The notes under the pieces were generated by a model. The model did not search any database, was not told where the DNA came from, and saw only the letters and a program-made list of their open reading frames with translations. From contig NZ_CP031165.1 of the NCBI RefSeq assembly GCF_003344865.1, forward strand, positions 5,151,910-5,215,909: a stretch of DNA of 64,000 nucleotides. The letters run 5' to 3'. Source of the DNA: Euzebya pacifica (GTDB lineage Bacteria > Actinomycetota > Nitriliruptoria > Euzebyales > Euzebyaceae). The position numbers and the translations under genes are program-made. Positions 23,664 through 44,988 of the stretch are shown here, one piece after another (within the stretch, counting starts at the first letter, position 1; each line of letters begins with the position of its first letter).

Positions 23664-25436
23664 TCACCCAGCAAACGTACCTGCCTGCTGCGCGAGGCTC
23701 ACCAGCGCGCCGGGCAGGACACCCAGCACGACGACGGCCACGGCAGCCAGGCCGATACCGAGCATGGCCGCGTCGGATCGGGGCGGGTCGGCGATGGCCA
23801 GCGACGTCGCCGTCTCGTCCTCCACGAACATCGAGGCGATGATCCGCAGGTAGAAGAAGGCGGCGATCACGCTGGAGACGACACCGACGATGACCAGCAG
23901 CAGCTGACCGGCGTCGATGCCCGCCCGGAAGATCGCGAACTTGGCGGTGAACCCGGCGGTACCCGGGATGCCGGCGAGGGAGATCAGGAACAGCCCCAGC
24001 GCCATGGCGGGTTGCGGATACCGGCGGCCGAGGCCACGGAGGTCATCGAGGGTCACGGACTTCTTGAGGCGACGCTCGAAGAACGCCACGACCCCGAAGG
24101 AGCCGACCGACATGAACGTGTAGACCAGCAGGTACAGCAGGATCGCGCCGACGGACTCACGACCGGCGGCCCGTGTCCCGTCCGCCCCGAGCGGGCTGAT
24201 GGAGACCAGGCCGATGGCCACGTAGCCAGCGTGGGCGACCGCGGAGTAGGCGAGGATGCGCTTGACGTCGGTCTGCACGATCGCCAGGACTGCGCCGCCG
24301 ATCATGGTGACGACGGCCACGCCGATGATGACGGGCGCCCAGATCCACTGGAGGGGGGCCAGCGCACCGACGAAGACCCGGACGAACGCGGCGAACGCAG
24401 CAGCCTTGGTGGCCGCGGCCATGAAGCCGGTAACCGGGGTCGGGGCGCCCTGGTAGACGTCCGGGGTCCAGAAGTGGAACGGCACCAGCGCGGTCTTGAA
24501 CGCGAAGCCGACCAACAGCATCACCAGGGCCACGACGGTCAGGCCGTCGGGGGCGGTCAGCGAGGCAAGCGCCCGGCCGACCTCAGGGATGTTGGTGGAG
24601 CCCGCCACGCCGTAGCACAGGGCGATGCCGTACAGCAGCAGGGCGGAGGAGAACGCCCCCAGCAGGAAGTACTTCATCGCCGACTCCTGGCTGTTCAGGT
24701 CACGCTTGGCGAGGCCAGCCATGACGTACAGCGCGAGGGAGAGGATCTCCACGGCGATGAAAACGAGGATCAGGTCGTTGGCGGCGGCCAGCAAGGTCAT
24801 GCCGGTCGCAGCGAACAGCAGCAGCGGGTAGTACTCGCCGCGGTGGATCTGGCGCTCCTCCATGTAGGCGAAGCCGATCGGGATGGTGATCATGCCGGCC
24901 AGGCACACCGAGAAGCGGGTGAACAGGGCGACGCCGTCGACGGCTGCCATGCCCGCGAGCAACGAGTCGGTGCCGACCAGCGCCACGGCGTCCTGCCCAC
25001 CGCTGACGGCGACGAGCTGTCCGGCGTAGGTCTGCCACTGCCAGATGGTCACACCCAGCGCGGCGGCGAAGCCGAGGAAGGTGATGACGGCGCCGAGGCG
25101 ACGAGGGGTGTCCTTCAGCCAGGCCGTCAGGCCGAACTGCACGACCGCGCCGACGGCGACGATCCCTGCCAGCAACGGCACGTTGGAACCGGTGGTGGAG
25201 GCGTTCTGCCAGTAGGCCGCGCCACAGCAGGCGAGGATGACGCCACCCGCGACGAAGGAAGCCTGCAGGCGGTTGCGGTTGTTGCGTCCGGTCGGGGTGA
25301 CGCCGGCGGTGTCCAGCAGCAGGGCCAGGATGCCGACGCCGAAGAGCACCAGCTCGGGGCTGATCGCCGCCCACGGGAAGTCGACGATCTGTGCGCCCGT
25401 CTGGGCCAGCACGGGATGCGCGAGCAGGGAGGTCAC
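23664..25436 (-). CDS. nuoN: NADH-quinone oxidoreductase subunit N (second complex I)
   Basis: A 590-residue antiporter-like subunit, about 100 residues longer than usual. The extra length comes from additional hydrophobic and loop material near the N-terminus and in the middle (SGGQDAVALVGTDSLLAGMAA). Core motifs are present: EILSLALYVMAG, VGFAFKTALVPFHFWTPDVYQGAPTPVTG and GIPGTAGFTAKFAIF. Start is GTG at 25436, overlapping the nuoM stop by 4 bp (GTGA). Confidence 0.95.
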   Translation of the reverse strand: MTSLLAHPVLAQTGAQIVDFPWAAISPELVLFGVGILALLLDTAGVTPTGRNNRNRLQASFVAGGVILACCGAAYWQNASTTGSNVPLLAGIVAVGAVVQFGLTAWLKDTPRRLGAVITFLGFAAALGVTIWQWQTYAGQLVAVSGGQDAVALVGTDSLLAGMAAVDGVALFTRFSVCLAGMITIPIGFAYMEERQIHRGEYYPLLLFAATGMTLLAAANDLILVFIAVEILSLALYVMAGLAKRDLNSQESAMKYFLLGAFSSALLLYGIALCYGVAGSTNIPEVGRALASLTAPDGLTVVALVMLLVGFAFKTALVPFHFWTPDVYQGAPTPVTGFMAAATKAAAFAAFVRVFVGALAPLQWIWAPVIIGVAVVTMIGGAVLAIVQTDVKRILAYSAVAHAGYVAIGLVSISPLGADGTRAAGRESVGAILLYLLVYTFMSVGSFGVVAFFERRLKKSVTLDDLRGLGRRYPQPAMALGLFLISLAGIPGTAGFTAKFAIFRAGIDAGQLLLVIVGVVSSVIAAFFYLRIIASMFVEDETATSLAIADPPRSDAAMLGIGLAAVAVVVLGVLPGALVSLAQQAGTFAG

Positions 25437-26956
25437 TGGTCCTCACCCTCCAGGGCGGTCTCCGCCTCGGTCGCGGCGGCGTCCACGGCAGCCAGATCTG
25501 CATCCACCTGCTGGATCACCGCCTCCACCGAAGGGTTGACGATGTCGTACAGGGGCTTGGGGTACAGGCCGATGGCCAGCATCAGCACCACGAGCGGGGC
25601 CATCACGGCGATCTCGCGGGTGTTGAGGTCGGTCATGGTCTCGGCGTGGCCGCCGATGGGGCCGTGGAACATGCGCTGGTAGGCCCAGAGCAGGTACAGG
25701 GCGGCGAAGATCACGCCGAACGCGGCAGCGATCGCCGCCCACGGCACCGTCTGGTAGGTCCCCATCAGGATCGGGAACTCGCCCACGAAGCCGTTGAGGC
25801 CGGGCAGGGCGATCGAGGACATCGTGCTCACGAGGAACAGCCCACCGAAGATCGGCGTGGCCTTCATCAGGCCGGAGTACGCCGCGATCTCACGCGAGTG
25901 CGTGCGCTCGTACATGAACCCGATCAGCAGGAACAGCGCACCGGTGGTGATGCCGTGGTTGACCATCTGCACGACCGACCCGCTGGCTGCGGTGGGCTGC
26001 AGGGCGAAGATGCCGATGGCGACGAAGCCGAGGTGGGCGACCGAGGAGTAGGCGACCAGCTTCTTGATGTCGGACTGCACCAGGGCGACCAGCGCCCCGT
26101 ACAGGACACCGATCACGCCGGCGGCCAGGATCGGCCCGACGTAGAGGTCGGTGGCCTCGGGGAACAGCGGCAGGTTGAACCGCAGGAAGCCGTAGCCACC
26201 GATCTTCAGCATGACCGCCGCCAGCACGACCGAGCCGACGGTGGGCGCCTCGGTGTGGGCGTCGGGCAGCCACGTGTGCAGCGGGAACAGCGGCAGCTTG
26301 ATCGCAAACGCCAGGAAGAAGGCCCAGAAGAGCCAGATCTGCTCGCCGCGGGTCAGGTCGACCGCCAGCACGTCGGCGTAGGCGAAGGACCCGCCGGCCT
26401 GGAACGACAGGTACAGGATGCCGACGAGCATCAGCAGGCCGCCGACCAGCGTGTACAGGAAGAACTTGACCGATGCGTAGCGCCGGTTGGCGCCACCCCA
26501 CACCCCGATCAGGGCGTACATGGGGATCAGCATGATCTCGAAGAACAGGTAGAAGAGCACCAGGTCCAGCGCCATGAAGACGCCGATCAGGGCGGACTCG
26601 AGGACCAGGAGGGCGATGAAGAAGCCCTTGGTCCGGTCGGTGTGCTCCCAGGATGCCAGCACGACCAGCGGGAAGATGAAGGTCGTCAGCAGGACCAGGA
26701 GCACGCTGATGCCGTCGAGGCCGAGGACGTAGGTGATGCCCCACTCGGGGATCCACGCCTTGGACTCGATCATCTGGACCTCGGCCGTGCCGACGGCGAA
26801 GTCGGCCATGACCACGATCGACACCAGGAAGGTGGCGACGGTGCCGACCGCAGCGCCGATCCGGAACAGGCCGGTGTTCTCGCGTGGCACGAAGGCCAGC
26901 AGCAGCGCCGCGACCGCGGGGATCGCGACCAGCAGGGTGAGGATGTTGCCGGACAT
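25433..26956 (-). CDS. nuoM: NADH-quinone oxidoreductase subunit M (second complex I)
   Basis: A 507-residue proton-channel subunit with FFEIMLIPMYALIGVWGG, FAIKLPLFPLHTWLPDAHTEAP and LKIGGYGFLRFN. A tail of about 30 acidic residues extends past the last helix. The start is ATG at 26956, one base overlapping the nuoL stop (TGATG). The frame stays open for about 800 bp upstream, but that stretch is read-through across nuoL and not coding. Confidence 0.95.
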   Translation of the reverse strand: MSGNILTLLVAIPAVAALLLAFVPRENTGLFRIGAAVGTVATFLVSIVVMADFAVGTAEVQMIESKAWIPEWGITYVLGLDGISVLLVLLTTFIFPLVVLASWEHTDRTKGFFIALLVLESALIGVFMALDLVLFYLFFEIMLIPMYALIGVWGGANRRYASVKFFLYTLVGGLLMLVGILYLSFQAGGSFAYADVLAVDLTRGEQIWLFWAFFLAFAIKLPLFPLHTWLPDAHTEAPTVGSVVLAAVMLKIGGYGFLRFNLPLFPEATDLYVGPILAAGVIGVLYGALVALVQSDIKKLVAYSSVAHLGFVAIGIFALQPTAASGSVVQMVNHGITTGALFLLIGFMYERTHSREIAAYSGLMKATPIFGGLFLVSTMSSIALPGLNGFVGEFPILMGTYQTVPWAAIAAAFGVIFAALYLLWAYQRMFHGPIGGHAETMTDLNTREIAVMAPLVVLMLAIGLYPKPLYDIVNPSVEAVIQQVDADLAAVDAAATEAETALEGEDQ

Positions 26957-28971
26957 CAGACGGAGCCTCCGATGAAGGCGAACGCGACGAGCGCGCCGAG
27001 GAAGATGGTGCCGGCGACGATGCCCAGCGCGTAGGAGCGGACGTAGCCGGTCTGGGTGCGACGGGCCTGGCCGGCGAAGGACCGGGTCACGCCGGCAGCG
27101 CCGTTGACGATGCCGTCGACGCCGCCCTTGTCCACCCGGGACAGGCCACGGGCCAGCGCGCCACCGACCTTGACGGTGAAGAACTCGTAGAACTCGTCGA
27201 CGTAGAACTTGTTGCGGGCGATCGACACGAGGCCGCCGCCCACGCCGATGGTCTGGACCTTCTTGGCGTCGGTGCCGCGGAACATCCAGATGGAGATCGC
27301 GACGCCGATCGCGGCGACGGCCAGCGCGGCCGGCAGGTGCCAGGACACGGGGATGATCTCGCTGGTGTGGTGGAACGCCTCGACGGTGTTGCCGAGCCAG
27401 CCGTGCAGCCAGCCGTCCTCGGGCGAGGTGTTCAGCAGTCCACCGAAGGCCGCCGCGACGGCCAGCAGGAGCAGGGGCAGCGTCATGGACGGCGGCGACT
27501 CGTGCGGATGGAAGACCGCCTTGCCCGCGTCGTCGGTGACCCCCTCCCAGCGCTTGGGTCCGGTGAAGATCAGCAGGAACCAGCGGACCATGTAGAAGGC
27601 GGTCATGCCGGCGACCAGCAGGCCGAGCACCCAGAGCGCCTCGGTGCCAGCGGTCTCGGCCGCGGCGGCGAGGATCTCCTCCTTGGAGTAGAAGCCCGAG
27701 GAGAAGGGGAACCCGGCGATCGCGAGGACCGCGATCAGCGAGGTCGTGCCGGTGATCGGCATCTTGCGCCACAGTCCGCCCATCTGGCGGATGTCGGTGC
27801 GGTCGGCCATCGCGTGCATGACCGAACCGGCGGCGAGGAACAGCAGCGCCTTGAAGAAGCCGTGGGTCAGCAGGTGGAAGACGCCGGCGGTGTAGTCGCC
27901 GACCCCCACACCGATGAACATGTACCCCAGCTGGCTGACGGTGGAGTAGGCGAGGATCTTCTTCAGGTCGACCTGGGCGCAGGCGATGGCGGCCGCGACG
28001 AACGCGGTGGCGCCACCCACCCAGGCGACGATCAGGCCGATGTCGGGGATCGCGGCGTACAGCGGCGAGGTGCGGGCGATCAGGTAGACACCCGCGGTCA
28101 CCATCGTGGCCGCGTGGATCAGGGCCGACACGGGGGTCGGACCGGCCATGGCGTCGGGCAGCCAGACGTACAGCGGGATCTGCGCGGACTTGCCGGTCGC
28201 GCCGACGAACAGCAGCAGCCCGATGGCGACCAGCGTCCCGGTCGCGGCGGTGCCGATCGCGGGGAGGACCTCGGCGAACTCCAGGGACCCGAAGGTCGCG
28301 AAGACGATGAACATCGCGACCATGAAGCCGACGTCACCGATGCGGTTGGTGACGAACGCCTTCTTGGCGGCGGCGGCGTACTCCTTCTTCTCGAACCAGA
28401 AGCCGATGAGGAGGTAGGAGGACAGCCCGACGAGCTCCCAGCCGACGAACAGGACGAGGAAGCTCGAGCCGAGGACCAGCACCAGCATCGAGGCGGCGAA
28501 CAGGTTCAGGTAGGCGAAGAACCGTTCGTACCGCGAGTCGTGTGACATGTAGCCCAGCGAGTACACGTGGATCAGCAGGCCGACCCAGGTGACCAGCATC
28601 AGCATCACGGCCGACAGCGGGTCGACCAGCATCGACCAGTTCACCGTGAACCCGGCGATGTCCAGCCACGCCGCCACGTCCACGACGAACGTGCGGTCGC
28701 CTGACGGGTGACTCAGCAGCTCGAGCAGGACCAGGGTCGCCATGGTGGCGGAGAAGCCGATGGCAGTGATGGCCACGCCGGAGGTCAGGCGACCCAGGCG
28801 ACGGCCGAACAGCAGCAGGAGCCCGGCGCTGATCGCCGGCACGACCGGGATCAGCCAGGCCAGGTCGATGACCGACCCGGCGGCTGCGGTGGAGATGTGC
28901 TCGAAGGGGTGCCCGCCGCCCTCGGTCGCGAGGACGGGGACGAGCAGCGGGGACAGCAGGGAGCCGGTCAC
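26956..28971 (-). CDS. nuoL: NADH-quinone oxidoreductase subunit L (second complex I)
   Basis: A 671-residue NuoL of normal size. It has [40 protein letters not shown] and the C-terminal lateral helix region. It lacks the His/acid-rich insert of the first NuoL. Start is GTG at 28971, in a GTGA overlap with the nuoK stop. The longer open frame upstream reads through nuoK out of frame and is rejected. Confidence 0.95.
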
Positions 28972-29285
28972 GAGCGGAGCCGATCTGCGTCGTCGGCGTC
29001 GATGGACGCCCGGAGTCGGAACAGGTTCACGATCAGCGCGAGGCCGACGGTGACCTCGGCCGCAGCGACGACCATCACGAAGAAGGACAGGACCTGCCCG
29101 TCGAGGTTGCCGTTGATGCGGCTGAAGGCGACCAGGGTCAGGTTGACCGAGTTCAGCATCAGCTCGATGCACATGAACATGACGATCAGGTTCCGGCGCA
29201 CGAGGACGCCGACGATCCCGATCGAGAACAAGGCAGCGGCCAGCAGCAGGTAGTAGCCGGCCGGGATGCCTGCAGCGGGGCTCAT
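28968..29285 (-). CDS. nuoK: NADH-quinone oxidoreductase subunit K (second complex I)
   Basis: A 105-residue, three-helix subunit. Channel glutamates are visible in [16 protein letters not shown] and [14 protein letters not shown]. The ATG at 29285 overlaps the nuoJ stop by 4 bp (ATGA). Confidence 0.96.
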
Positions 29286-30061
29286 TGGCCTTCCTCCCCG
29301 TGGGTGTGGTCGTCGAGCTCGGCGGCCGGGGTTGTGGTCTCGCCAGCGGGGATGGACACGGGCTCGTGGGGGACGCCCGGTTCGGCCGCGGTGCCGGAGT
29401 CGACGAGGTCGGTCATGTTGTCGGTGCGTCGGCCGAGGACCATCGCGCCGATGGCGGCGATGACCAGCAGGACGCTCGTGACCTCGAAGGGCCAGACGTA
29501 GCGGCCGAAGATGAGCCGGCCGATCTGGGCGACGTTGCCGCCCTCGGCGGCGTTCTGGCCCTCGAGGCCCACACAGGGCCGGGCGGCCGCACCCTGGTCG
29601 GCGATCGACTCCTCGACCGCGCCGGAGATGTTGCAGGCGCTGTCGGTGCCCATGTACGGGCCCGCCACCGTGGCGGTCAGGCCCATGAACAGGCCGATGC
29701 CGAGCACGATCGCCGCGACCTTCTGGCCACGGATCCTGCCCGGTCCGGACTCGACGCTCTTGTCGACGCCGAGCAGCATCAGCACGAACAGGAACAGGAT
29801 CATGATCGCGCCGGCGTAGACGATGACCTGGATGGTGGCCAGGAACTGCGCCTGCAGCACCGCGTAGAACACCGCGAAGGTGAAGAAGTTGATGACGAGC
29901 ATCAGGGCGGCGTGGACCGGGTTCTTCAGCACCACGACGCTGATCGCGGCAGCCAGCGAGAGGGGGGCGATCAGCCAGAACACCCAGAACTCGGCAGCAC
30001 CCGAGGTGGACTGGGTGGCCGTCTGCGCAAGCGTGACGACGGCCGGGGCCAACGCACTCAT
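29282..30061 (-). CDS. nuoJ: NADH-quinone oxidoreductase subunit J (second complex I)
   Basis: A 259-residue membrane subunit with [21 protein letters not shown] and [20 protein letters not shown]. An external loop of about 55 residues lies before the last helix, including two cysteines (TDSACNISG and ARPCVG). The polar C-terminal tail is about 50 residues long and ends in His/acid residues. ATG at 30061 in a 4-bp overlap with nuoI. Confidence 0.94.
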
Positions 30062-30726
30062 GCCACGACCTCGCCGTCGTCGTCGATGCCGTCCTCGTTG
30101 CCGGGCCGGGTCTGGGTGCCGGGAATCGGCTCGGTGGCGACCGCGCCCATGGTCTCGCCGTCGGCAGCCTTGGTCATGCGCTTGTCGTAGACGTAGGCGC
30201 TGCCCTTGCTGACCAGCGGCTGCTGGCCGGCGAAGTTGTTCTCGTAGTACTCCAGGCCACGGGCAGCGACCTCCGCGTCGGTGTGCGGGGTCTCCTGCGC
30301 GCCGTCGGGGAGGGGGGCCAGCAGCTGGTCCTTGGTGAAGATCAGGTCGTCGCGGTTGTCCCCGGCGATCTCGTACTCGTTGGACATCGTCAGCGCCCGG
30401 GTGGGGCAGGCCTCGATGCACAGGCCGCAGAAGATGCAGCGCAGGTAGTTGATCTGGTAATCCACGCCGTACCGCTCACCGGGCGAGAAGCGGGCGTCGG
30501 GGCTGTTGTCGGCGCCCATCACGAAGATGGCGTCGGCGGGGCAGGCCCATGCGCACAGCTCGCAGCCGACGCACTTCTCCAGCCCGTCGGGGTGCCGGTT
30601 CAGGACGTGACGCCCGTGGAAACGCGGCTGGGTGGGCCGCTTGACCTCGGGGTACTGGGTGGTGACTGGCGGCCTGAACATCGTCTTGAAGGTCAGACCG
30701 AAGCCCTTGAGCATCGCGTTGAACAT
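30058..30726 (-). CDS. nuoI: NADH-quinone oxidoreductase subunit I (second complex I)
   Basis: A 222-residue two-cluster ferredoxin subunit. Ligands are Cys 52, 55, 58, 62 ([12 protein letters not shown]) and Cys 97, 100, 103, 107 ([12 protein letters not shown]), and the N-terminus is a FGLTFKTMF amphipathic helix. The tail after residue 180 is acidic and short compared with that of the first NuoI. The ATG at 30726 lies 4 bp after the nuoH stop; upstream in-frame codons belong to the nuoH tail region. Confidence 0.95.
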
Positions 30727-30730
30727 CGCG

Positions 30731-32137
30731 TCAGGCTCCCACGGGTTCGGGGGCGGAGGACTCGTCGTCGCTGCTGGCCGGATCGGCCGGGGTGGTCGCG
30801 ACGGGGTCGGGGTCGGGTGTGGCCGTGGCACCACCGCTGGGGCCGGCGGGTGGGGTCGGGCGACGGGTGCCGCCGCCCCCGCCACCGGAGCCTTCGTCGG
30901 ACACCGTGGCCTCGTCCTCGCGTGCACCGGCGAAGACCGGGGCGACGAAGGCGAGGAAGGCCAGGGCACCGAAGATCAGCGCCCCGAAGGGGGCGATCTG
31001 GCCGATGGCGTCGTCGGTGGTGGACACGTAGCTGCGGACGACGACGGCGAAGCCGGTCAGGAAGACCCAGACGATGCCGAGCGGCAGCATGACGCGCCAG
31101 CCCAGGTCCATCAGGCGGTCGTAGCGCATGCGGGGCAGGGTCGCCCGGAGCCACACGAAGACGAAGATGAAGATCATGACCTTGCCGGCGAAGTAGCCGA
31201 TCGGCAGCAGCAGCTGCAGGGCGATCTGCCACCACGCGTCACCGGAGGGGACGGGGCCGGAGGGTCCGCCGAGGAACATGGTGACCACGAGCGCGCTCAT
31301 GGTGATGACGTTCATGAACTCGGCCAGGAAGAACATCGCGAACTTGGCGGCCGAGTACTCGGTGTGGAACCCGGCGACGAGCTCTCCTTCGGCCTCGGGG
31401 AGGTCGAAGGGCGGGCGCTGGGTCTCAGCGATCGCGCTGATGAAGAACAGCAGGAACGCCGGGAACATCGGCACGATGTTGAAGGCTGGGATCAGGTCGA
31501 GGCCGGGGATCACGACGCCGAAGACGCTGCCCCCCGGGATCAGGGAGCCGGCTTGTCCGGCAACGATGTCGGATGAGCGGAGCGAGCCGGTGTAGATGAA
31601 CACCGCCGCAGCGCCGAGGCCCATCGCCAGCTCGTAGGAGACCATCTGGGCCGAGGAGCGGACGCCACCGAGGAGGGGGTACTTCGAACCGGACGACCAA
31701 CCGGCGAGCACGATGCCGTACACGCCGATGGACCCCATGGCGAGGGTCCACAGGATGCCGATCGTCGGGTCCCACACCTGCAGGCTGACGACCCGGTCAC
31801 CGATCTCGATCCCCCGGCCGCCGAACGGGATGACCGCGAACGTCATCATCGCGACGATGGCGCTGACCAGCGGGGCGGTGAAGTAGACGATCTTGTCGGC
31901 GTTCCTCGGTGTGATGTCCTCCTTGAAGAAGAACTTCGCGCCGTCGGCAACGGTCTGCAGCATGCCGAACGGCCCCAAGCGGTTGGGGCCGATGCGGGAC
32001 TGCATCTTGGAGACCAGACGTCGTTCGCCCCAGATGAGCATGGCGGTGGACAGCAGCCACAGCACGAATGCCGCGATGACCACCCCCAGGACGAGAAGGA
32101 AGTCGACCCAGTCGTTGATCTGTGGGACGGGCAACAT
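30731..32137 (-). CDS. nuoH: NADH-quinone oxidoreductase subunit H (second complex I), Pro/acid-rich tail
   Basis: A 468-residue quinone-channel subunit. Core motifs: [31 protein letters not shown] and [23 protein letters not shown]. After the last helix about 65 residues follow, with a run of six glycines and many Pro, Thr, Asp and Ser. The start is ATG at 32137, overlapping the nuoG stop by one base; the much longer open frame upstream is nuoG read in another frame. Confidence 0.95.
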
Positions 32138-34575
32138 CAGCTCTCGCCTCCGTTGGAGTTGGCGGATCCCGCGGCCACGGGTTCGGCAGGCTGTGCGTCG
32201 GCGATCGTGATGCCGTTGCGGCCGATGTCCCCGGCGTGGATGCGCGGAAGGACGACGGTCCCGGGGGCCACGGCAGGCGTCACGCGGAGGACCAGGTCGA
32301 CGCTGCCGCGGTCGCCGGTGACGGCCACGGTGTGCCCGTCGATGGCGGTGCCGGCATCGGCCGGGTTGACCCAGATCGACGGGGCAGGCCGGCTGTCGAC
32401 GAGCTCCTTGGCGCCGGTCAGCATCGTGCCGCCCTGCAGCAGGATCGGCAGGTAGACCGCGGTGAGGCCGTCGGTGTCGGCCGGCTGGTCGATCTCGGTG
32501 GCGGTGGCCGTGGAGGCGCCGCGTTCGGGGGTCGGGGCCATCAGGGGTGCGGCCTCGCGACGGACGTCGTTGGCGGTCTCCCAGCCGAGGTCGGTACCCA
32601 TGCTGCGGGCGACCTGTCGGACGACGTCCCAGTCCTGCAGGGACTGGCCGACGGCGCCCACTGCCTGGGGCCAGGCCTGGCGGCGGCCCTCCCAGCTGGT
32701 GAAGCTGCCGACCCGCTCCGGCGGTGCCGTGACGGGGAAGACGACATCGGCGCGGCGCACGGACTCCGTCGGCAGCGTGTCGCTGGCGATGACGGTCGGG
32801 GCGACCTCGAGGGCCCGACGAGCCAGGTCCGGATCGTCGAAGTCGGCGACGGGGTCGACACCGATCAGCCACAGGGTGGTGATCGTGCCGTCCACGACGG
32901 CCTGCAGGATGCCGGTGGCGTCGAGGCCCGGTTCGGTGGGGACACGACCCCAGGCCTCGGCGACGGGGCCGGGCGCGTCCAGCGGGCGACCGCCGGGCAG
33001 GGTGCCCGGCAGCAGGCCCGCTTCGATCGCACCGCGGGCACCGGGACGGCGGGGGACCCAGGCGAATCCGGCGCCGCGGGCCTCGGCCAGCGCCTTGGCC
33101 GCGGGCAGCGCACCCGGGCTCGCGGCGAGCCGCTCACCGGCCAGCACCACGGCAGGTGCCCTGGACAGGTCGGTGCCGTCACCGAGGACGTCGATGATCG
33201 GGGCGAGCTCCTCCGCACCGTCGGCGAGCGCCTGCAGGGCCGCAGCCTCGCCGCCGGCCTCCGTGGGGATCCACTGCCAGGCGATCTCCTCGAGACGACC
33301 GAGGACCGGGCCGACGACGACGATCTTCTGGTTGTGCTGGCGCCACGCCTTGCGCATGCGCAGGAACAGCAGCGGCAGCTCTTCGTGGGGTTCGAGGCCT
33401 GCCACGACGACCACCGGGGCCTGCTCGACGACGTCGTAGGTGACGTCGTGGTCACCGGCGATGGTCGGGAGCACGGCGAGGTCGTCGGCCTGCGGGCTGG
33501 TCCTGAAGTCGACGTGATCGGTCCCGACGACGTCGCGGGCGAACCGGCTGACGGCGTAGGCGTCCTCGTCGGTCAGGCGACCGCCCGTCAGGATGGCGAC
33601 GGAGCCGGGGCCGTTGGCGTCGATGGCGGCGGTCAGCTTCTCCGCGGCGGTGTCGACGGCGGAGACCCACGTGGCGCGCTCCAGCGCACCGGTGCCGCCG
33701 CGGACCAGGGGCGCGTCCAGCCGGTCGGGGTGGGAGACGAACGCGTAGCCGTAGCGGTTCTTGTCGTCCAGCCACGCCTCGTTGACGGCGAGGTTGGTCC
33801 GGGCGAGCGTGCGCTGGATGACCCCACGGCGCACGTCGTGGCGGACGTTGGCGCCCGACGCGTCGTGGAAGGCGATGCCGGGGATGCGGCGGATGTCGAA
33901 CGGCCGGGCGCCGAAGCGGTAGCTGTTGGACGTCAGGGCGCCGACCGGGCAGATCTGGACGACGTTGCCGGCGAAGTAGGACTCGTAGGGCTGGTCGCCG
34001 TAGATCGAGACCTGCTCCAGCGCACCGCGCTCGAACAGCTCGATGAACGGGTCACCGGAGATCTGCTTGGAGAAGCGGGTGCAGCGAGCGCACAGCACGC
34101 AGCGTTCGCGGTCAAGCGCGATCTGGGCGTTGATCGGCAGGGCCTTGGAGAAGACGCGCTTCTTCTCGTACATGCGCGATTCGCCCGGCCCGTGCTTGAG
34201 GGCCTGGTCCTGCAGGGGGCACTCGCCACCCTTGTCGCACTGCGGGCAGTCCAGGGGGTGGTTGACCAGCAGGAACTCCAGCTGGGACTCCTGGTACTGC
34301 CGGGCCACCTCGGAGGTCTCCTGGGTGCGGATGACCATGTCGGGGCGGACGGCCTCGGAGCACGAGGCCACCGGCTTGCGGGCCCCCTCGACGTCGACGA
34401 GGCACTGACGGCACGCGGCGACGGGGTCCAGCAAGGGGTGGTCGCAGAACCGCGGGATGGTGATGCCGATCTGCTCGGCAGCACGGATCACCAGGGTCCC
34501 GGGCTCGACCTCGAGGGCCTGGCCGTCGATCGTGATCGGGATCAGCTTGCTCTTGGCCTCGGTGGCATCAGACAT
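32137..34575 (-). CDS. nuoG: NADH-quinone oxidoreductase subunit G (second complex I), lacks cluster N7 ligands
   Basis: An 812-residue subunit. The [2Fe-2S] N1b ligands are Cys 44, 55, 58, 72. N5 uses His106 with Cys 110, 113, 119, and N4 uses Cys 159, 162, 165, 209. After that comes the molybdopterin-oxidoreductase-like region, which in many bacterial NuoG proteins begins with a fourth cluster (N7). Here the matching stretch (AFHDASGANVRHD, about residues 235-247) has Ala, Asp and Ala in place of cysteines, and the later cysteine position reads LDDKNRYG. Three main-chain clusters are intact, so electron transfer should work. Confidence 0.95.
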   Translation of the reverse strand: MSDATEAKSKLIPITIDGQALEVEPGTLVIRAAEQIGITIPRFCDHPLLDPVAACRQCLVDVEGARKPVASCSEAVRPDMVIRTQETSEVARQYQESQLEFLLVNHPLDCPQCDKGGECPLQDQALKHGPGESRMYEKKRVFSKALPINAQIALDRERCVLCARCTRFSKQISGDPFIELFERGALEQVSIYGDQPYESYFAGNVVQICPVGALTSNSYRFGARPFDIRRIPGIAFHDASGANVRHDVRRGVIQRTLARTNLAVNEAWLDDKNRYGYAFVSHPDRLDAPLVRGGTGALERATWVSAVDTAAEKLTAAIDANGPGSVAILTGGRLTDEDAYAVSRFARDVVGTDHVDFRTSPQADDLAVLPTIAGDHDVTYDVVEQAPVVVVAGLEPHEELPLLFLRMRKAWRQHNQKIVVVGPVLGRLEEIAWQWIPTEAGGEAAALQALADGAEELAPIIDVLGDGTDLSRAPAVVLAGERLAASPGALPAAKALAEARGAGFAWVPRRPGARGAIEAGLLPGTLPGGRPLDAPGPVAEAWGRVPTEPGLDATGILQAVVDGTITTLWLIGVDPVADFDDPDLARRALEVAPTVIASDTLPTESVRRADVVFPVTAPPERVGSFTSWEGRRQAWPQAVGAVGQSLQDWDVVRQVARSMGTDLGWETANDVRREAAPLMAPTPERGASTATATEIDQPADTDGLTAVYLPILLQGGTMLTGAKELVDSRPAPSIWVNPADAGTAIDGHTVAVTGDRGSVDLVLRVTPAVAPGTVVLPRIHAGDIGRNGITIADAQPAEPVAAGSANSNGGES

Positions 34576-35911
34576 GCCCGACTCCCACCTTCATCTCGGG
34601 ACGATCGGTCTGGGCGTTGTCGGTGATGACGCCCGCGTGCGGCTCGATGTGCTCGGGCAGGCGACCGTTGGCGATCACGTACTCGTACTCGTCACGGAAG
34701 TACTTGATGCCGGACTTGACCGAGCTGGTCGCGCCGTCGGCCAGCGCGCAGAACGAGCGGCCGAAGATGTTGTCGGCCAGCTCGTCGAGTGTGGCGATGT
34801 CCTCGGGTCGACCGCGGCCGCCGAGGATGCGCTCCAGGATCTGGCCGACCCAGAAGTTGCCCTCGCGGCACGGGGTGCACTTGCCGCAGGACTCGTGCTC
34901 GTAGAAGCGGATCCAGTTGAGGGTCGCTTCGATCACCGAGGTCTTGTCGGAGTACATCATCATCGCGCCGGTGCCCATCAGGCTGCCGGCGGCGGCGATG
35001 GAGTCGAAGTCCATCGGGATGTCGTAGTGCTCGGCGGTCAGCAACGGGGTCGAGGACCCGCCGGGCGCCCAGAACTTGAGCTCCCGTCCGTCGAGCATGC
35101 CGCCGCAGGCCTCCTCGATGATCTGCCGGGCGGGCGTGCCCATCGGATACTCGTAGTTGCCGGGCCGGTTGACCTCACCGGAGACGCAGAACAGCTTGGT
35201 GCCGGGCGACCGTTCGGGCCCCCACTGCTTCCACCAGTTGGCGCCGTGCTCGATGATGTGGCCGGCAGCGGCGATGGACTCGACGTTGTTGATGACCGTC
35301 GGGCAGGCGTACAGGCCCGCGACGGCGGGGAACGGCGGACGCAGGCGCGGCTGGCCACGACGGCCCTCCAGCGCCTCGAGCAGCGCGGTCTCCTCGCCAC
35401 AGATGTAGGCGCCGGAGCCGTAGTGCAGCGTGATGTGGTGGGAGAAACCCGACCCCATGATGTCGTCGCCGAGGTACCCGGCGGCGTAGGCCTCGGCCAG
35501 GGCCTCCTCGATGCGGATGCCCGACCAGAGGTACTCACCGCGCAGGAAGATGAAGCTGCGGGGGGAGTTCAGCGCGTACGCCGAGCAGATGATCCCCTCG
35601 ATCAGCTGGAACGGGTCGCGCTCCATGAGCTCGCGGTCCTTGAAGGTCCCGGGCTCGCCCTCGTCGGCGTTGATGACGAGGTAGATCGGCTTGCCGGTGT
35701 CCTGGGGCACGAACGACCACTTGAGGCCCGTCGGGAACCCTGCGCCGCCGCGGCCGCGCAGGCCCGAGTCCTTGACGACGTCGCGCAGCGCGGCGGGGTC
35801 CTGGTTGAGGGCGCGCTTGAGGGCCTTCCAGCCGTCGGTGCGCGTGTAGCCCTCGAGGGTGTGGGCGTCGGGGACGTCGTAGCGCTTGGACAGCACCTTG
35901 ACCTGCGGCAT
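34568..35911 (-). CDS. nuoF: NADH-quinone oxidoreductase subunit F (second complex I, NADH/FMN site)
   Basis: A 447-residue subunit that oxidises NADH with FMN and passes electrons to cluster N3. It has GLRGRGGAGFPTGLKW (FMN-binding glycine-rich loop), GEETALLEALEGRRGQPRLR (NADH/FMN) and ESCGKCTPCREG plus a downstream cysteine for N3. Its presence, with E and G, shows that this second operon encodes a true NADH-dependent enzyme. The start ATG at 35911 overlaps the nuoE stop by one base. Confidence 0.97.
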   Translation of the reverse strand: MPQVKVLSKRYDVPDAHTLEGYTRTDGWKALKRALNQDPAALRDVVKDSGLRGRGGAGFPTGLKWSFVPQDTGKPIYLVINADEGEPGTFKDRELMERDPFQLIEGIICSAYALNSPRSFIFLRGEYLWSGIRIEEALAEAYAAGYLGDDIMGSGFSHHITLHYGSGAYICGEETALLEALEGRRGQPRLRPPFPAVAGLYACPTVINNVESIAAAGHIIEHGANWWKQWGPERSPGTKLFCVSGEVNRPGNYEYPMGTPARQIIEEACGGMLDGRELKFWAPGGSSTPLLTAEHYDIPMDFDSIAAAGSLMGTGAMMMYSDKTSVIEATLNWIRFYEHESCGKCTPCREGNFWVGQILERILGGRGRPEDIATLDELADNIFGRSFCALADGATSSVKSGIKYFRDEYEYVIANGRLPEHIEPHAGVITDNAQTDRPEMKVGVGHV

Positions 35912-36807
35912 CAGCTGATCCCTTCCTCTTCACCGATCGTGGAGTCGTCGGCGTCGTCGGGGGTGGTGGTGTCGTCGGCGACCGGCTGGGCCTGGGGTTC
36001 GGCCTGCGGGTCGGTGTCGGCGGGTTCGGCCACGTCGGCGTCGCCCGGCTCCGCCGGCGGTTCGGTGTCGGTGACCGTGCCGGCGTCGTGCTCGGGAGCG
36101 GGGACCTCGTCGGGCGTCTGACCGTTGGGGGCCTGTGCCCCCGCGCCACCGAAGCTGATCACGCCGACGGACCCGGATCCCACGCCGGCGTCGGGCGTCG
36201 GCACGGCACCGTCGTCCTTGGTCGCAAGGCCCAGGCGCTGTCCGGGACCCTCGGGGTCGATCGGGCCGATGCCGGCCAGGCGGTGGCTGGCGGCCTTGAT
36301 GCCGGGGGGAACCATGCCTCGGGTGGGCTGGGGCGGGTTGCCCGCACGGACGGCCTCGACCAGCTCGACGGCGGCGTCGGGGTCGACCCACTCGTAGTTG
36401 AGGTAGTCGACGGTGACGACCGGGGCACCCTCGCAGTTGCCCAGGCACTCGGCGTGCTCGAGGGTGATCCTGCCGTCCTCGGTGGTCTGGTCGTGACCCA
36501 CGCCGAGGTGCTCGCGCAGCCGGTCGTAGGTGGCCTGTCCCCCGCGCACGGCGCAGGAGAAGTTGGTGCACACGCTGACCAGGTGCTCGCCCATGGGCTC
36601 GCGCTTGTACATCGTGTAGAAGGTCGACACGGCGGCGACCTCGGCCTTGGTCAGGTCGAGCAGCTCGGCGCACTCGGCGACGCCGTCATCGCTGACGAAG
36701 CCGTCCTGGTGCTGCACGAGGTGCAGCAGGGGCAGCAGGGCGCTCCGCTTCACGGGGAAGCGGTCGACCAGGGCTTCGGCCTTCGCGCGCAGCTCTGGGG
36801 AGAACAC
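35911..36807 (-). CDS. nuoE: NADH-quinone oxidoreductase subunit E (second complex I), acidic tail
   Basis: A 298-residue subunit. Residues 1-160 form the 24-kDa fold with the [2Fe-2S] N1a ligands in VSVCTNFSC and AECLGNCEGAP. The rest is a Pro/Asp/Glu/Thr-rich tail of about 135 residues that looks disordered. Start is GTG at 36807. Unlike the tight spacing elsewhere in the operon, a 258-bp gap separates it from nuoD, and that gap holds its own promoter with a CRP-like site. Confidence 0.94.
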   Translation of the reverse strand: MFSPELRAKAEALVDRFPVKRSALLPLLHLVQHQDGFVSDDGVAECAELLDLTKAEVAAVSTFYTMYKREPMGEHLVSVCTNFSCAVRGGQATYDRLREHLGVGHDQTTEDGRITLEHAECLGNCEGAPVVTVDYLNYEWVDPDAAVELVEAVRAGNPPQPTRGMVPPGIKAASHRLAGIGPIDPEGPGQRLGLATKDDGAVPTPDAGVGSGSVGVISFGGAGAQAPNGQTPDEVPAPEHDAGTVTDTEPPAEPGDADVAEPADTDPQAEPQAQPVADDTTTPDDADDSTIGEEEGIS

Positions 36808-36940
36808 GACGGTGCCAGGCCTTTCGGAGGTGGGTGACGAGGGGTCCGCGGTTCGGAAGGCGGTGTTTCCGAGGGCAGTGTGCTCAACGTGGGATGACAG
36901 CCCCGGGGGCAGTATTCAATCGCCTCAGCGCGGGTTCCGC

Positions 36941-36980
36941 AGGTTAGCAGCGCGACCCTGCATATGTGAAGCCGTTCACA
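36941..36980 (-). promoter_or_regulatory. Internal promoter before nuoE with CRP/FNR-type site
   Basis: TGTGAAGCCGTTCACA (36965-36980) is an exact TGTGA-N6-TCACA palindrome. A minus-strand -10 box TAACCT (36946 to 36941) lies 18 nt from it. Spacing and flanking bases match the copy upstream of nuoA. The leader to the nuoE GTG is about 125 nt. A cAMP-receptor or FNR-like regulator is the likely ligand. Confidence 0.65.
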
Positions 36981-37065
36981 AGGGCACAGGCGAGGTCAGG
37001 AACCCGCGATCGGCACACCCGGCTGGCGCATCCCCACGGAGGGACGAGCACGAGGCCGAGGGGGA

Positions 37066-38439
37066 CTAGCGGTCGACGCCGCCCATGACGGGGTCGAGGG
37101 AGGCGACGGCAGCGATGACGTCGGCGACCTGCAGCCCGCGAGTGGCCGCGGGGATGGCGCCGATGTGGATGAAGGAGGGTTCGCGGACGTGGACGCGGTA
37201 CGGCTTGTTCGTGCCGCTGGACGTCACGTGGTACCCGAGCTCGCCACGAGGGGACTCCACGGGGACGTAGACGGTGCCCTTCGGCACCTCGAAGCCCTCG
37301 GTCACCAGCTTGAAGTGGTGGATCAGGGCCTCCATCGACTGGCCCATGATCTTGCCGATGTAGGACTTGGCGTTGCCCAGCCCGTCGGGGCCGAGCGCGA
37401 GCTGCGCCGGCCAGGCGACCTTCTTGTCGGCCACCATCACGGGACCGCCGGGCAGCGACTTCAGCGCCTGCTGGACGATCTTGATGGATTCGCGCATCTC
37501 GCGGACGCGGATGAGGAACCGGCCGTAGGCGTCGGCGGTGTCGGTGGTCTGGACCTCGAAGTCGTACTGCTCGATACCGCAGTAGGGGGCGGACTTGCGC
37601 AGGTCGTGGGCGACACCGGCAGAACGAAGGACCGGGCCGGTGATACCCAGGTCGAAGCACTGCTCGGCGGTCAGCACACCGACGCCGACGTTGCGCTCCT
37701 GCCAGATCGGGTTCTCCGTCAGCAGGTCCTCGAGCTCGTCGATCTTGCCGGGGAGCTCGTCGATGACCTCGCTGACCCGGGACACGAAGTCCTCGGGGAC
37801 GTCCTGTGCCAGGCCGCCGGGGCGGATGTAGGCATGGTTCATCCGCAGGCCGGTCACGTACTCGAAGATGTCGAGCAGCGTCTCGCGCTCACGGAAGCCG
37901 TAGATCATCGCCGACAGCGCGCCGAGCTCCATGCCGCCGGTCGCCAGCGCCACCTGGTGGGAGGTGATGCGGTTGATCTCGGTCATGATGACGCGGATCG
38001 CCTGGGCGCGTTCGGGCACGTCGTCGCCGATGCCCAGCAGCTTCTCCACCGCCAGGCAGTAGCCCAGCTCGTTGTGGAGCGGCGCCAGGTAGTCCATGCG
38101 GGTGACGAAGGTGACGCCCTGCACCCAGGGACGGAACTCGGCGTTCTTCTCGATGCCGGTGTGCAGGTAGCCGATGACCGGCTGGTTGTCGACGATCATC
38201 TCGCCGTCCATGGTCAGCAGCATCCGCAGCACGCCGTGTGTGGACGGGTGCTGCGGTCCCATGTTGATGACCATGAGGTCGTCCTCGACGGCGTCGGGCA
38301 GGTTCTGCCACTCGCCGGAGCCGGCGACGGTGAACTCACCGTCGACGGGCTCGAGGGTTGCCTGGGAGGCGGAGCGCTCGGGGACGATGTCGCTGGTCTC
38401 GTCGGCCCACGCGCCGGCCTGGGGGTCCTGGTCAGCCAT
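37066..38439 (-). CDS. nuoD: NADH-quinone oxidoreductase subunit D (second complex I)
   Basis: A 457-residue 49-kDa subunit. It has the quinone-site motif [15 protein letters not shown] (near residue 60), [10 protein letters not shown] and a C-terminal [10 protein letters not shown]. The N-terminal extension of about 50 residues is acidic. The ATG at 38439 overlaps the nuoC stop by one base. Confidence 0.96.
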
Positions 38440-39080
38440 CAGTAATCACGCTCGTCGGGGGGCGACACGGTGTGGCCCTTGTACATGACCTCCACGCCAC
38501 CCAGGGGGTAGTCCTTGCGGTGGGGATGCCCGTCCCAGTCGTCGGGCATCATGATGCGGGTCAACGCGGGGTGGCCGGTGAACTCCACGCCCATCAGGTC
38601 GTAGACCTCGCGCTCGAGGAAGTTGGCCGAGGAGTACTGCGGCGTGGCGCTGGCCACCACCGGGTTGTCGTCGGGCAGCGAGACGCGCAGGCGGAACCAG
38701 TGGGACTTGCTGACCGAGCGGAGGATCCAGGACACGTCGATGTGGCCGGAGTCCTCGACCTCGGTGTAGGTCGGCCAGCCGGTGGTCTCCTGGCTGTTGA
38801 CCTCCGCCGCCCCGGCGGGCCAGTGCACCGCGGAGACGTCCGACAGCAGCTCGCACGCCGCGACCGGGTCGGCCTTGCAGAAGGCCAGGACCTGCGGCAC
38901 GTGCTCGGCGGTGGTCTCCAGCGTCAGCTCGCCGCGGAACGCCGTGGCGGTGACGCCGTCGAGGTTGGCGACCAGGTGGTCGCGCAGCGCCGCGAGGCCG
39001 TCGCTCAGGGCGTCCACCTCGTCGGGCAGCTGCCGGTCGTCGGGGATCTCGGCTTCGGGGGTGTGGGTGGTGTCGCTCAT
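38439..39080 (-). CDS. nuoC: NADH-quinone oxidoreductase subunit C (second complex I)
   Basis: A 213-residue 30-kDa subunit of normal length, with [24 protein letters not shown] and [14 protein letters not shown] near the end. It lacks the very long tail of the first operon's NuoC. It starts 6 bp before the nuoB stop region in transcription order, with ATG at 39080. Confidence 0.95.
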
Positions 39081-39086
39081 CGGTCC

Positions 39087-39794
39087 CTACCTGGCCCAGG
39101 AGCTGCCGGGCTTGCCCGCAGCGATTTGTTCCTGCCGCCGCTGGACGCCTTCGGCCTTGGTGTGGCCGCCGCCGGCGACGGTCTCCTTGGGCATGATCCG
39201 GTGCAGCGCGGGGGCGGTCATGTCGGGCGATCCGGTGACGCGACCGGGGTCCTCGATGGTCTCGCCATCGACCCAGCCGGTGCGCTTGCGGAAGTCCGCC
39301 ATCGACTCGCCCTTGCGGGGACGCTCGACGAGCTGCTCGTTGCGGATCTTCTCGTGCAGCTTGAGGATGCCGTCCATCAGCAGCTCGGGACGCGGCGGGC
39401 AGCCCGGCACGTACATGTCGACCGGGATGATGTGGTCGACGCCCTGCACGATGGCGTAGTTGTTGAACATGCCGCCCGAGGACGCGCAGACGCCCATGGA
39501 GATGACCCACTTGGGGTCCGCCATCTGGTCGTAGAGGTTGCGCACGATCGGGGCCATCTTCTGGCTCACGCGACCGGCCACGATCATCAGATCGGCCTGG
39601 CGCGGAGAGGCACGGAAGACCTCCATGCCGAAGCGGGCCAGGTCGTAGTGGGCGGCACCGGTCGACATCATCTCGATGGCGCAGCAGGCAAGGCCGAAGG
39701 TGGCGGGGAACAGCGACCCTGCGCGGGCGATGCCCAGCAGCTTCTCGGCGCTGGTCAGCAGGATGCCGTCGGGCAGACGGGACTCTATGCCCAT
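39087..39794 (-). CDS. nuoB: NADH-quinone oxidoreductase subunit B (second complex I)
   Basis: A 235-residue N2-cluster subunit. Cys 37 and 38 lie in [11 protein letters not shown], then come the cysteines of [11 protein letters not shown] and [12 protein letters not shown]-terminal extension of about 75 residues is basic and absent from the other NuoB. The ATG at 39794 lies 4 bp after the nuoA stop; upstream codons in the frame cover nuoA and are not used. Confidence 0.95.
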
Positions 39795-39798
39795 GTGA

Positions 39799-40164
39799 TC
39801 ACTCCCAGTCCAGGCCGCCCTTGCGGACGACGTAGTAGTAGGACTCCAGCAGCAGGGCGATGAACACGCCCATGGTTGCCAGGCCGTACCACGACAGCTC
39901 CGCCAGGACCGTGGCCCACGGGTAGAGGAAGACCGCCTCGACATCGAAGATGATGAAGAGCATCGCGATCAGGTAGAACTTCACCGGAAACCGCTGGCCG
40001 GCGATGGCCGTCTCGGGCTCGGGGATGATGCCGGACTCGTAGGGCGCTTCCTTCGCCGGGCTCGGGTTCTTCGGCCCGAGCTTGGCCGACACCAACACGG
40101 ACGCGACCACGAACAGCGTGGCGACAGCGAAGAGCAGCACGATGGGCAGGTACTCGACCAGCAC
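39799..40164 (-). CDS. nuoA: NADH-quinone oxidoreductase subunit A (second complex I)
   Basis: A 121-residue, three-helix subunit with [23 protein letters not shown] and [17 protein letters not shown]. It is the first gene of the 14-subunit operon. Start is GTG at 40164, with GGAGG about 20 nt upstream and no closer ribosome site, so the true start could be debated. Confidence 0.94.
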
Positions 40165-40233
40165 GGGTGGTGACCTTCTTCCTTGGAGGTGGGGGCGAGG
40201 GGTCCGGATCCGCCACGGGGCGACACCATTGAA

Positions 40234-40254
40234 GCGCCTCCGTACGGGAGGCGC
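40234..40254. promoter_or_regulatory. Palindrome next to the -10 box of nuoA (possible second operator)
   Basis: GCGCCTCC (40234-40241) and GGAGGCGC (40247-40254) are perfect 8-bp arms with 5 nt between. They cover the expected transcription start of the nuoA promoter. The duplicate promoter at 36941 has diverged here and lost the palindrome. Confidence 0.4.
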
Positions 40255-40294
40255 AGGTTAGCAGCCGCCGCGAGGGCATGTGAAGTCGTTCACA
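40255..40294 (-). promoter_or_regulatory. nuoA: Promoter of the second nuo operon with CRP/FNR-type site
   Basis: TGTGAAGTCGTTCACA (40279-40294) is an exact TGTGA-N6-TCACA palindrome. The -10 box TAACCT reads on the minus strand from 40260 to 40255, leaving 18 nt between, the same distance as at nuoE. The site centre is about 39 bp upstream of the inferred start, near the class II activator position. The site is also about 105 bp upstream of the MFS gene on the other strand. Confidence 0.65.
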
Positions 40295-40386
40295 AGTGCA
40301 CGACGCGGGTTCTCGTGGGGATCCGCGGCCGAGGCGACCCGGTCCGCCGGGCACGGCCGACCGGTCCGGCCGTCACCCCTCGCCGG

Positions 40387-42708: not shown

Positions 42709-44988
42709 ATGTCCATCTCTGCCACCTACCGACGGATCACGGGCGTCCTCGCCCTGCTGGTCCTGACCGCGTTGTTGCCGCTCACCGCGGCAAGCGCACA
42801 GGACGAGCGCACCGTCGTCGACCTCGACCTCGTCGCCGACGACGTCTCCGACCCCGTCGAGACCTCGATCCTGTACAGCCGCCAGACCTTCGGCTCCGCC
42901 GAGCAGGCCCTTGTCGCCACCTCCTTCGACGGTGCCGACGCGCTGGCCTCGGGCTCGCTGCAGTCCGGCGTCGGCGAGGCCGCCGCCACCGACACCGAGG
43001 GCACCGCCGTCACCGGCCGTCCGCTGCTGTTCGTCGACCCGACCGCAGGCCCCGAGCAGGCGCTCTTCGACGAGCTGTCCCGCCTCGGCGTCACCTCGAT
43101 CATCCTGCTGGGTGGCGAGAGCGCCGTTCCGCCCGCCGTCGCCGACGCCTTCGAGGAGGCAGGGTTCGCTGACGTCCAGCGCATGGGCGGCACCACCCGT
43201 GTCGCCACCGCCAGCCTCGTCGCCGAGTACGTGCTGGCCAACAGCGACACCACCACGGCCTACCTCTCCCGTGCGTTCGGCACGGCCGAGGACACCGACA
43301 CCGCGTACGCCGACTCCTCCGCGCTCGGCGGATGGGCCGCGTCGACCGGCAACCCGATCCTCCTGACGGCCACCGAGAGCCTGTCCCTGGAGACCTCACT
43401 GCTGCTGCAGCAGGGCGACATCGAACGCGTCGAGATCGTCGGCGGCCCCGAAGCCGTCAGCGACGACGTCGAGCAGGCGCTGGTCGACATGGGCCTGGAG
43501 GTCAACCGGACCGAGGGCGACACCCGTGACCAGACCGCCGTGGCCATCGCTGACGCCCGCGGCGCCGCCGACGCCGGCGATGCACCCCGCGTGATCGTGA
43601 CCGAGGGCTTCGCCGAGGACTTCTTCGTCAACGCCTTCGCCGCAGCCGCCCACTCGGGCCTGGCCGACGCCCCGATCCTGCTGACCAACGGTGACGACCT
43701 GTCGCCCGCCACCGCCACCTACCTCGAGGGCGCCGCGTTCGCGATCGCCGACTCCGGGCTGGTCGGCATCTGCGGTACGGACCTGTCCGCCACCCTGTGC
43801 ACCGACGTTGCGACCGCCCTGGACGCCACGGTCACCACCGTGACCCTCGACACCGACCCGACCGACCCCGGCACCGCCGAGCAGGTCGGTGACCTCGCCG
43901 TGACCCCGCAGGAGGAGACCACCACCCAGGTCGCCATCGACGAGGATCGTACGGGCGAGGCCGACGACGCCATCACCTTCACCGCCACCGACCTCGACCC
44001 GGAGACCAACTACCGGGTGACCCTGGTCGTGGCCGACAACGTCACCATCGACGGCGAGGACGCCACGTTCGCCGACGCCGACGACTCGACCCCCGACACC
44101 GAGGAGGACGACGGCCTGGGCAACGGCCAGGCCGACGCCGGTGCCTCGGAGGAGATCGCCCTGATCACCGCGGTCAACGGCGAAGCGCTGGAGACCCCGG
44201 CCAAGACCACCCCGGCCACCGATGACGACCCGGCGGAGCCGCCCGCCCACCAGCCCGACGAGGACGGCACCCTGACCGTCACCGTCGACGGTGTGGAGGA
44301 CTCCAACGGTGGCACCGTGTACGCCGTCGTGTACGTCAACGGTGGCGAGTCCACCTTCCTGGAGGTCGACGAGGACGGCGCCCCGACCGAGGCCTACGGC
44401 GTCTCCGGCGCCTTCACCCTGGACCCGGTCGTCGGTGACCTCGACGTCGCCGACCACGACCCCGTCACCGTCACCGTCGACAGCGTGACCGGCACCGACG
44501 CCGAGGGCGACGAGCGGACCTACACCGTGACTGGCCTCGACGACGACACCGCCTACCGCATCACCCTGGTGCCCGGCGACAACATCACCTTCACCGAGGG
44601 CGACGACGAGGCCACGTTCGTCGAGGCCGTCGGTGAGGACGAGGAGCCCAACGGCCTGGCCGACTCCGCCGGTGCCGAGTCCGTCGCCACGATCGTGGAG
44701 GTCAACGGCGAGGCCGTGGCCGAGGAGGAGCAGGGCCGCACCGTGCCTGCCGGCGACGACGACCCCTCCGACCCCTCCGGCATCTTCCCGGTCGACGGCG
44801 TGATCACCTTCACCATCGACGGTGTCGACTCCGCGATCCTGCCGACCCCCAACCCCGGCGGCACGATCCGTCCGGTCGTCTACGTCAACGGTGGCGAGTC
44901 GACCTTCCTCGAGATCGACGAGGACGGGGCACCCACCGAGGTCTACGGCGTCGGTGGTGCCTTCACCACCTCGCCGTTCCCCGGCTAG
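42709..44988 (+). CDS. Secreted CWB2 surface protein with two novel acidic tandem domains
   Basis: A 759-residue protein with a signal peptide (ITGVLALLVLTALLPLTAASAQ). Residues about 60-380 contain three CWB2-like repeats with ILLGGESAVP, VEIVGGPEAVS and ICGTDLSATL marks. Residues 420-577 and 602-759 are two related acidic repeats of about 155 residues. Each starts with a D-x-(E/D)-T-x-YR-(V/I)-TLV strand, passes through an NGxAD region, and ends YVNGGESTFLE(V/I)DEDGAPTE. These repeats match no domain I know. Very low pI and many Asp-x-Asp patterns suggest calcium binding or a salt-adapted surface. A ribosome site AGAGGAG lies 9 nt upstream. The 177-bp gap before it has no obvious promoter. 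Confidence 0.85.
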   Translation: MSISATYRRITGVLALLVLTALLPLTAASAQDERTVVDLDLVADDVSDPVETSILYSRQTFGSAEQALVATSFDGADALASGSLQSGVGEAAATDTEGTAVTGRPLLFVDPTAGPEQALFDELSRLGVTSIILLGGESAVPPAVADAFEEAGFADVQRMGGTTRVATASLVAEYVLANSDTTTAYLSRAFGTAEDTDTAYADSSALGGWAASTGNPILLTATESLSLETSLLLQQGDIERVEIVGGPEAVSDDVEQALVDMGLEVNRTEGDTRDQTAVAIADARGAADAGDAPRVIVTEGFAEDFFVNAFAAAAHSGLADAPILLTNGDDLSPATATYLEGAAFAIADSGLVGICGTDLSATLCTDVATALDATVTTVTLDTDPTDPGTAEQVGDLAVTPQEETTTQVAIDEDRTGEADDAITFTATDLDPETNYRVTLVVADNVTIDGEDATFADADDSTPDTEEDDGLGNGQADAGASEEIALITAVNGEALETPAKTTPATDDDPAEPPAHQPDEDGTLTVTVDGVEDSNGGTVYAVVYVNGGESTFLEVDEDGAPTEAYGVSGAFTLDPVVGDLDVADHDPVTVTVDSVTGTDAEGDERTYTVTGLDDDTAYRITLVPGDNITFTEGDDEATFVEAVGEDEEPNGLADSAGAESVATIVEVNGEAVAEEEQGRTVPAGDDDPSDPSGIFPVDGVITFTIDGVDSAILPTPNPGGTIRPVVYVNGGESTFLEIDEDGAPTEVYGVGGAFTTSPFPG

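Follow-up and report, generated by a model that had tools for sequence, protein, structure and literature searches.

A second copy of the nuoA promoter, with a probable Rex operator, between nuoD and nuoE of Euzebya pacifica

The nuo operon and its two promoter regions

The stretch of DNA analysed in this study, here called the window, comprises 64,000 nt of the 6.37-Mb genome of Euzebya pacifica (G000). It contains a nuo operon on the minus strand, with the gene order nuoA, B, C, D, E, F and G, assigned by NCBIfam models, followed by H, I, J, L, M and N, assigned by Pfam domains. The two promoters described below are encoded on the same strand (Table 1). The genes nuoC/D, E/F and F/G abut or overlap; nuoD and nuoE are separated by a gap of 258 nt. 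Everything downstream of this gap, nuoE-N, consists of the EFG genes plus H, I, J, L, M and N and thus comprises NADH-module as well as membrane subunits. Elsewhere in the window, a large secreted-type protein with repeats of the cell wall binding domain 2 (CWB2) is encoded on the plus strand (42709-44988).

Table 1. Coordinates of the nuo genes and promoter elements in the window
Feature	Position	Strand	Evidence or remark
nuoA	39799-40164	-	NCBIfam NF005922, E 5.5e-39, below curated cut-off
nuoB	39087-39944	-	open reading frame, true start probably further in; TIGR01957 above cut-off
nuoC	38439-39080	-	NF005856, E 5.1e-45, below curated cut-off
nuoD	37066-38439	-	TIGR01962 above cut-off
nuoE	35911-36807	-	GTG start at 36807; NF005721, E 2.6e-76
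nuoF	34568-35911	-	TIGR01959 above cut-off
nuoG	32137-34575	-	NF005895 and TIGR01973 above cut-off
nuoH, I, J, L, M, N	23664-32872	-	Pfam NADHdh, Fer4, Oxidored_q3, Proton_antipo_N/M, Oxidored_q5_N
nuoH, I, J, L, M, N, open reading frames	30731-32872, 30058-30969, 29282-30421, 26956-29172, 25433-27772, 23664-25436	-	
Internal promoter, putative Rex operator TTGTGAACGGCTTCACAT	36964-36981	-	exact palindrome; one of two such sites in the genome
Internal promoter, putative -35 box TTCACA (right half of operator)	36965-36970	-	position and 18-nt spacing
Internal promoter, putative -10 box TAACCT within GCTGCTAACCTGCG	36941-36946	-	uniqueness of the 14-mer; identity in G002
Shared early-leader block GAGGCGATTGAAT	36914-36926	-	aligns with GAGGCGCTTCAAT at 40228-40240
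nuoE late leader GGACCCCTCGTCACCCACCTCCGAAAGG...	36808-36847	-	40/40 identical in sister species; first part shared with nuoA leader
nuoA promoter, putative Rex operator TTGTGAACGACTTCACAT	40278-40295	-	exact palindrome; one of two sites in the genome
nuoA promoter, putative -10 box TAACCT in the same 14-mer GCTGCTAACCTGCG	40255-40260	-	18-nt spacer
nuoA late leader, including block shared with nuoE leader	40165-40205	-	alignment

Within the nuoD-nuoE gap the nuoA promoter is repeated, with the operator CTTGTGAACGGCTTCACAT, an 18-nt spacer, GCTGCTAACCTGCG, GAGGCGNTTNAAT and a block late in the leader. Both regions have in common CTTGTGAACGRCTTCACAT, with exact palindromes at 36965-36980 and 40279-40294, the spacer of 18 nt from TTCACA to the TAACCT box inside GCTGCTAACCTGCG, and then GAGGCGNTTNAAT. 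Close to the start codon both leaders read CGGACCCCTCGNC.CCCACCTCC, the nuoA leader being one base shorter there, and on the plus strand GAGGGGTCCG and GGAGGTGGG are present in both. From TAACCT, 133 nt lead to the start codon of nuoE and 90 nt to that of nuoA. The nuoE leader is thus the longer one, as the preceding sequence-only reading had stated, with a difference of 43 nt instead of about 44 bp.

Aligned locally, the two upstream regions scored 65, and none of 1000 Markov shuffles exceeded 34; when the operator and all sequence upstream of it were left out, the score was 40, with at most 38 reached among 5000 shuffles. The similarity therefore extends well past the 16-bp palindrome. In the complete genome, exact matches to the operator TGTGAANNNNTTCACA occur only at these two sites, and the same is true for the 14-mer GCTGCTAACCTGCG, which is also found exactly twice in the sister species. 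By alignment and genome-wide counts of its elements, the repetition of the nuoA promoter before nuoE that the sequence-only reading had claimed, including the spacing, the TAACCT box and the flanking and leader parts, is borne out. We also considered GCTGCTAACCTGCG as a general -10 context of promoters in this genome, which was rejected on the basis of its restriction to these two places. Similarly, the shared late-leader block does not represent a genome-wide motif, having a single further match (2 mismatches) in E. pacifica and one in the sister species.

A scan with a strict sigma-70 consensus detected no promoter at the nuoE site nor at nuoA. TTCACA-18-TAACCT is conserved, yet falls below this strict consensus, and the assignment of the -35 and -10 boxes consequently rests on conservation. 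No Rfam element was found in the leader. In the nuoA leader (window 40165-40230), a well-placed Shine-Dalgarno sequence and an ATG open an out-of-frame reading frame, both in E. pacifica and in the sister species. At the corresponding position of the nuoE leader, the sister species (L137) has an ATG that shares the frame of nuoE and would add 30 codons; the window reads ATA there. A short upstream reading frame and an N-terminal extension of NuoE were considered as possible reasons for the conservation of the leader, against which this ATA speaks. The leader could be conserved for translation and not for transcription.

Conservation and occurrence in related genomes

The closest comparison is offered by the sister species (G002), whose NuoE protein is 94% identical and which carries operators and promoters at both nuoA and nuoE. 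From the operator to the -10 box, the internal promoter is identical at 44/44 positions in the two genomes, and the nuoE late leader at 40/40. The part of the nuoD-nuoE gap upstream of the operator is identical at only 53/78 positions and the four-fold sites of nuoE and nuoD at 74-77%; the spacer of the nuoA promoter has acquired three changes. Because of this difference, the internal promoter is likely to be under selection, as judged from the sequence comparison. The occurrence of the internal copy in only two (three with the diverged form) of the four species of the genus and at none of about 95 other loci would fit a functionless, decaying by-product of a local duplication, but its full identity to the sister species, where neutral-like sites reach around 75%, makes such an origin highly improbable.

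Whether relatives share the duplication, a question raised by the sequence-only reading, has a divided answer. In contrast to the sister species with both copies, a third species of the genus (G003) has no operator before nuoA and carries, just before nuoE, a diverged operator (2 mismatches) with an 18-nt spacer and TAACCTGCGG. The fourth (G001) has an operator before nuoA only and lacks the internal copy. Outside the genus, an operator with at most 2 mismatches in the nuoD-nuoE gap was found in 0/80 named loci and in none of the other order-level loci. Matches with 3 mismatches in two multi-kb nuoD-nuoE gaps may be due to chance. In two other Nitriliruptoria the operator precedes a geranylgeranyl-reductase-like gene, named by eye from its sequence, upstream of nuoA. 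The further question of a split between nuoA-D and nuoE-N can be answered in that the junction is contiguous as a rule and can be split: nuoD and nuoE lie several kb apart in two Acidimicrobiia MAG contigs (L075, L082) among the surveyed loci.

In a phylogeny based on NuoB, D and E, G003 groups with E. pacifica and the sister species (support 91). This is in accordance with a single acquisition of the internal promoter once G001 had branched off, with the nuoA operator probably lost in G003; an older gain followed by loss in G001 is the alternative.

Two peculiarities of the junction were observed in these relatives. In G003 (L139, 5055-6171, with nuo turned to the plus strand), an apiosidase-like frame (PF13204) of 327 codons, read in the direction of the nuo genes, separates nuoD from nuoE; the Rex-type operator follows this insert and lies just before nuoE. 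In the sister species (L137), two strong GC hairpins directly follow nuoD (z -2.15, no T run), which are absent from the window and might reduce read-through into nuoE.

Rex or CRP as the regulator

The sequence-only reading had described the palindrome as a CRP-type site. This assignment is probably incorrect, since a Rex operator would agree with the motif, with its placement over the -35 box, with the neighbouring regulon and with the presence of rex alongside it. We interpret the site as most likely a Rex operator (TTGTGAA-N4-TTCACAA) that overlaps the -35 box and clearly prefer Rex to CRP, if not beyond doubt. Both TTGTGAACGGCTTCACAT and TTGTGAACGACTTCACAT match this inverted repeat with one flank base off. 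More precisely, TTGTGAACGGCTTCACAT fits TTGTGAANNNNTTCACAA except for the last base, a T, which is also found in the footprinted nuoA1 site TTGTGACCTGCTTCACAT of Streptomyces avermitilis. There, the Rex footprint is located at the -35 region and includes TTGTGACCTGCTTCACAT; NADH reduces the binding of Rex to DNA, so that the repressor is released (PMC5355995). E. pacifica encodes a canonical Rex with an N-terminal DNA-binding and a Rossmann domain (PF06971 and PF02629 above cut-off; matches to PDB Rex chains down to 5e-47).

The outer bases TGTGA-N6-TCACA match a CRP site, which is equally true of Rex sites. The CRP consensus is without strong preference for the inner AA/TT and the outer T/A bases. 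We examined these bases at 72 actinobacterial nuo-upstream sites picked on TGTGA/TCACA alone, some of which come from duplicate or closely related loci and are not all independent, and found inner A in 69/72 and T in 70/72, and flanking T in 69/72 and A in 68/72 (94-97%). A CRP-like lack of preference was therefore not seen. Both rex and a nuo operator (at most 2 mismatches) are present in 17/18 genomes and neither in G004, a co-occurrence that is weak in that it depends on this single absence. G004 belongs to the same family and has a small genome of 2.1 Mb, without detectable rex and nuo operator. The atp operon is a known Rex target, and a similar operator precedes it in 4/4 genomes of the genus. 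The genes cydA and rex itself are Rex targets in Streptomyces; no operator was detected within 3 mismatches at cydA, and none was found close to rex.

Further Rex-/CRP-like palindromes were observed before the atp operon (G000:C1:4323080, L189) and before the gene for an ATP-type PEP carboxykinase (G000:C1:827640, L192), both conserved in relatives, as well as before the genes for 6-phosphogluconate dehydrogenase (G000:C1:5456745, L190) and an Rpf-like transglycosylase (G000:C1:5502907, L191).

If the palindromes were sites for CRP (cAMP receptor protein), the duplicated promoter would respond to carbon status and not to NADH. A Crp/Fnr-type regulator is also encoded in the genome, TGTGA-N6-TCACA fits CRP as well, and one of the other exact sites of this form precedes the Rpf-like transglycosylase gene; in Mycobacterium tuberculosis, rpfA belongs to the targets of CRP. 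However, exact TGTGAN6TCACA sites occur at only four places in 6.37 Mb, the inner AA/TT and outer T/A bases, on which the nuo sites had not been selected, are strongly conserved as a Rex signature, rex and the nuo operator are jointly absent in G004, and it is Rex that was footprinted on an actinobacterial nuoA1 promoter (PMC5355995). We therefore regard control by CRP as improbable.

Proposed function and comparison with known systems

Our preferred explanation, which we consider probable, is that a second, duplicated Rex-type promoter in the nuoD-nuoE gap reads into nuoE-N and would be derepressed by NADH together with nuoA-D. What was directly observed is the duplicated sequence, with no further exact copy in the genome, its conservation in the sister species and a rex gene; a working promoter, binding of Rex and the purpose of the copy are what we infer. 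In this model TTCACA-18-TAACCT would serve RNA polymerase as the promoter. At a low NADH/NAD+ ratio Rex, a repressor that senses NAD+/NADH, would be bound to TTGTGAACGGCTTCACAT and cover the -35 box, and would do the same at the nuoA promoter; with rising NADH it would leave, and the nuoA and the internal promoter would fire together. The distal genes, about ten, of the approximately 16-kb operon would thereby be topped up in step with nuoA-D, and the internal copy would offset the fall-off of transcription along the operon.

The sequence-only reading had offered two consequences, a raised level of nuoE-N or a separate synthesis of the NADH module. The former is plausible from the sequence. 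The latter is weaker: the unit downstream is nuoE-N, and since the same operator is present at both promoters, joint regulation is the simpler expectation. More generally, the copy might allow nuoE-N to differ from nuoA-D in level or time, beyond a mere boost. The relatives provide the arguments for such a modular regulation, namely the operator of G003 at nuoE and not at nuoA, the gene inserted between nuoD and nuoE in that species, and the hairpins after nuoD in the sister species, which could cut read-through. In the window, however, the two promoters have almost the same operator and -10 box and would be expected to react in the same way. No terminator-like site was found there at the end of nuoD or before the internal promoter, the structure of the nuoD end is not unusual (z +0.97), and nuoE-N mixes subunits of the NADH module and the membrane part. 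For E. pacifica, differential regulation of the two parts thus appears rather unlikely; separate synthesis of the NADH module is not the simplest reading and is more attractive in G003. A tentative extension, somewhat speculative at this point, is that the genus is shifting redox control along the operon: the Rex operator would have been copied from nuoA to nuoE and the nuoA operator then lost in one species, so that NADH would set the supply of nuoE-N independently of nuoA-D.

The locus represents a clean natural case of an operon that has duplicated its regulated promoter internally, and species with a single operator, with two, or with one in a new place all exist. Such a series offers a way to find out if NADH feeds back on complex I through the entire operon or through the segment beginning with the NADH-binding subunits. 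A search of the open-access literature for a Rex-controlled internal nuo promoter yielded none, which does not prove its absence elsewhere. The type of switch is well known, whereas its duplicate inside the operon appears to be an uncommon, lineage-specific variant.

The closest known system is the Rex-repressed nuoA1-N1 operon of S. avermitilis, in which an operator of the same type overlaps the -35 box before nuoA and is bound by a repressor of the same family (PMC5355995). Only one operator is described there, whereas E. pacifica adds a second copy with its own -10 box and leader before nuoE. Related Nitriliruptoria and further actinobacteria, such as Glycomyces and Actinomycetospora, likewise have one Rex-type operator upstream of their nuo clusters, but it mostly lies 1.2-1.9 kb before nuoA, and the nuoD-nuoE interval has none. 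Extra promoters inside long bacterial operons, too, top up the distal genes; in E. pacifica, however, the extra promoter can be recognised as a duplicate of the one at the head of the operon, operator included.
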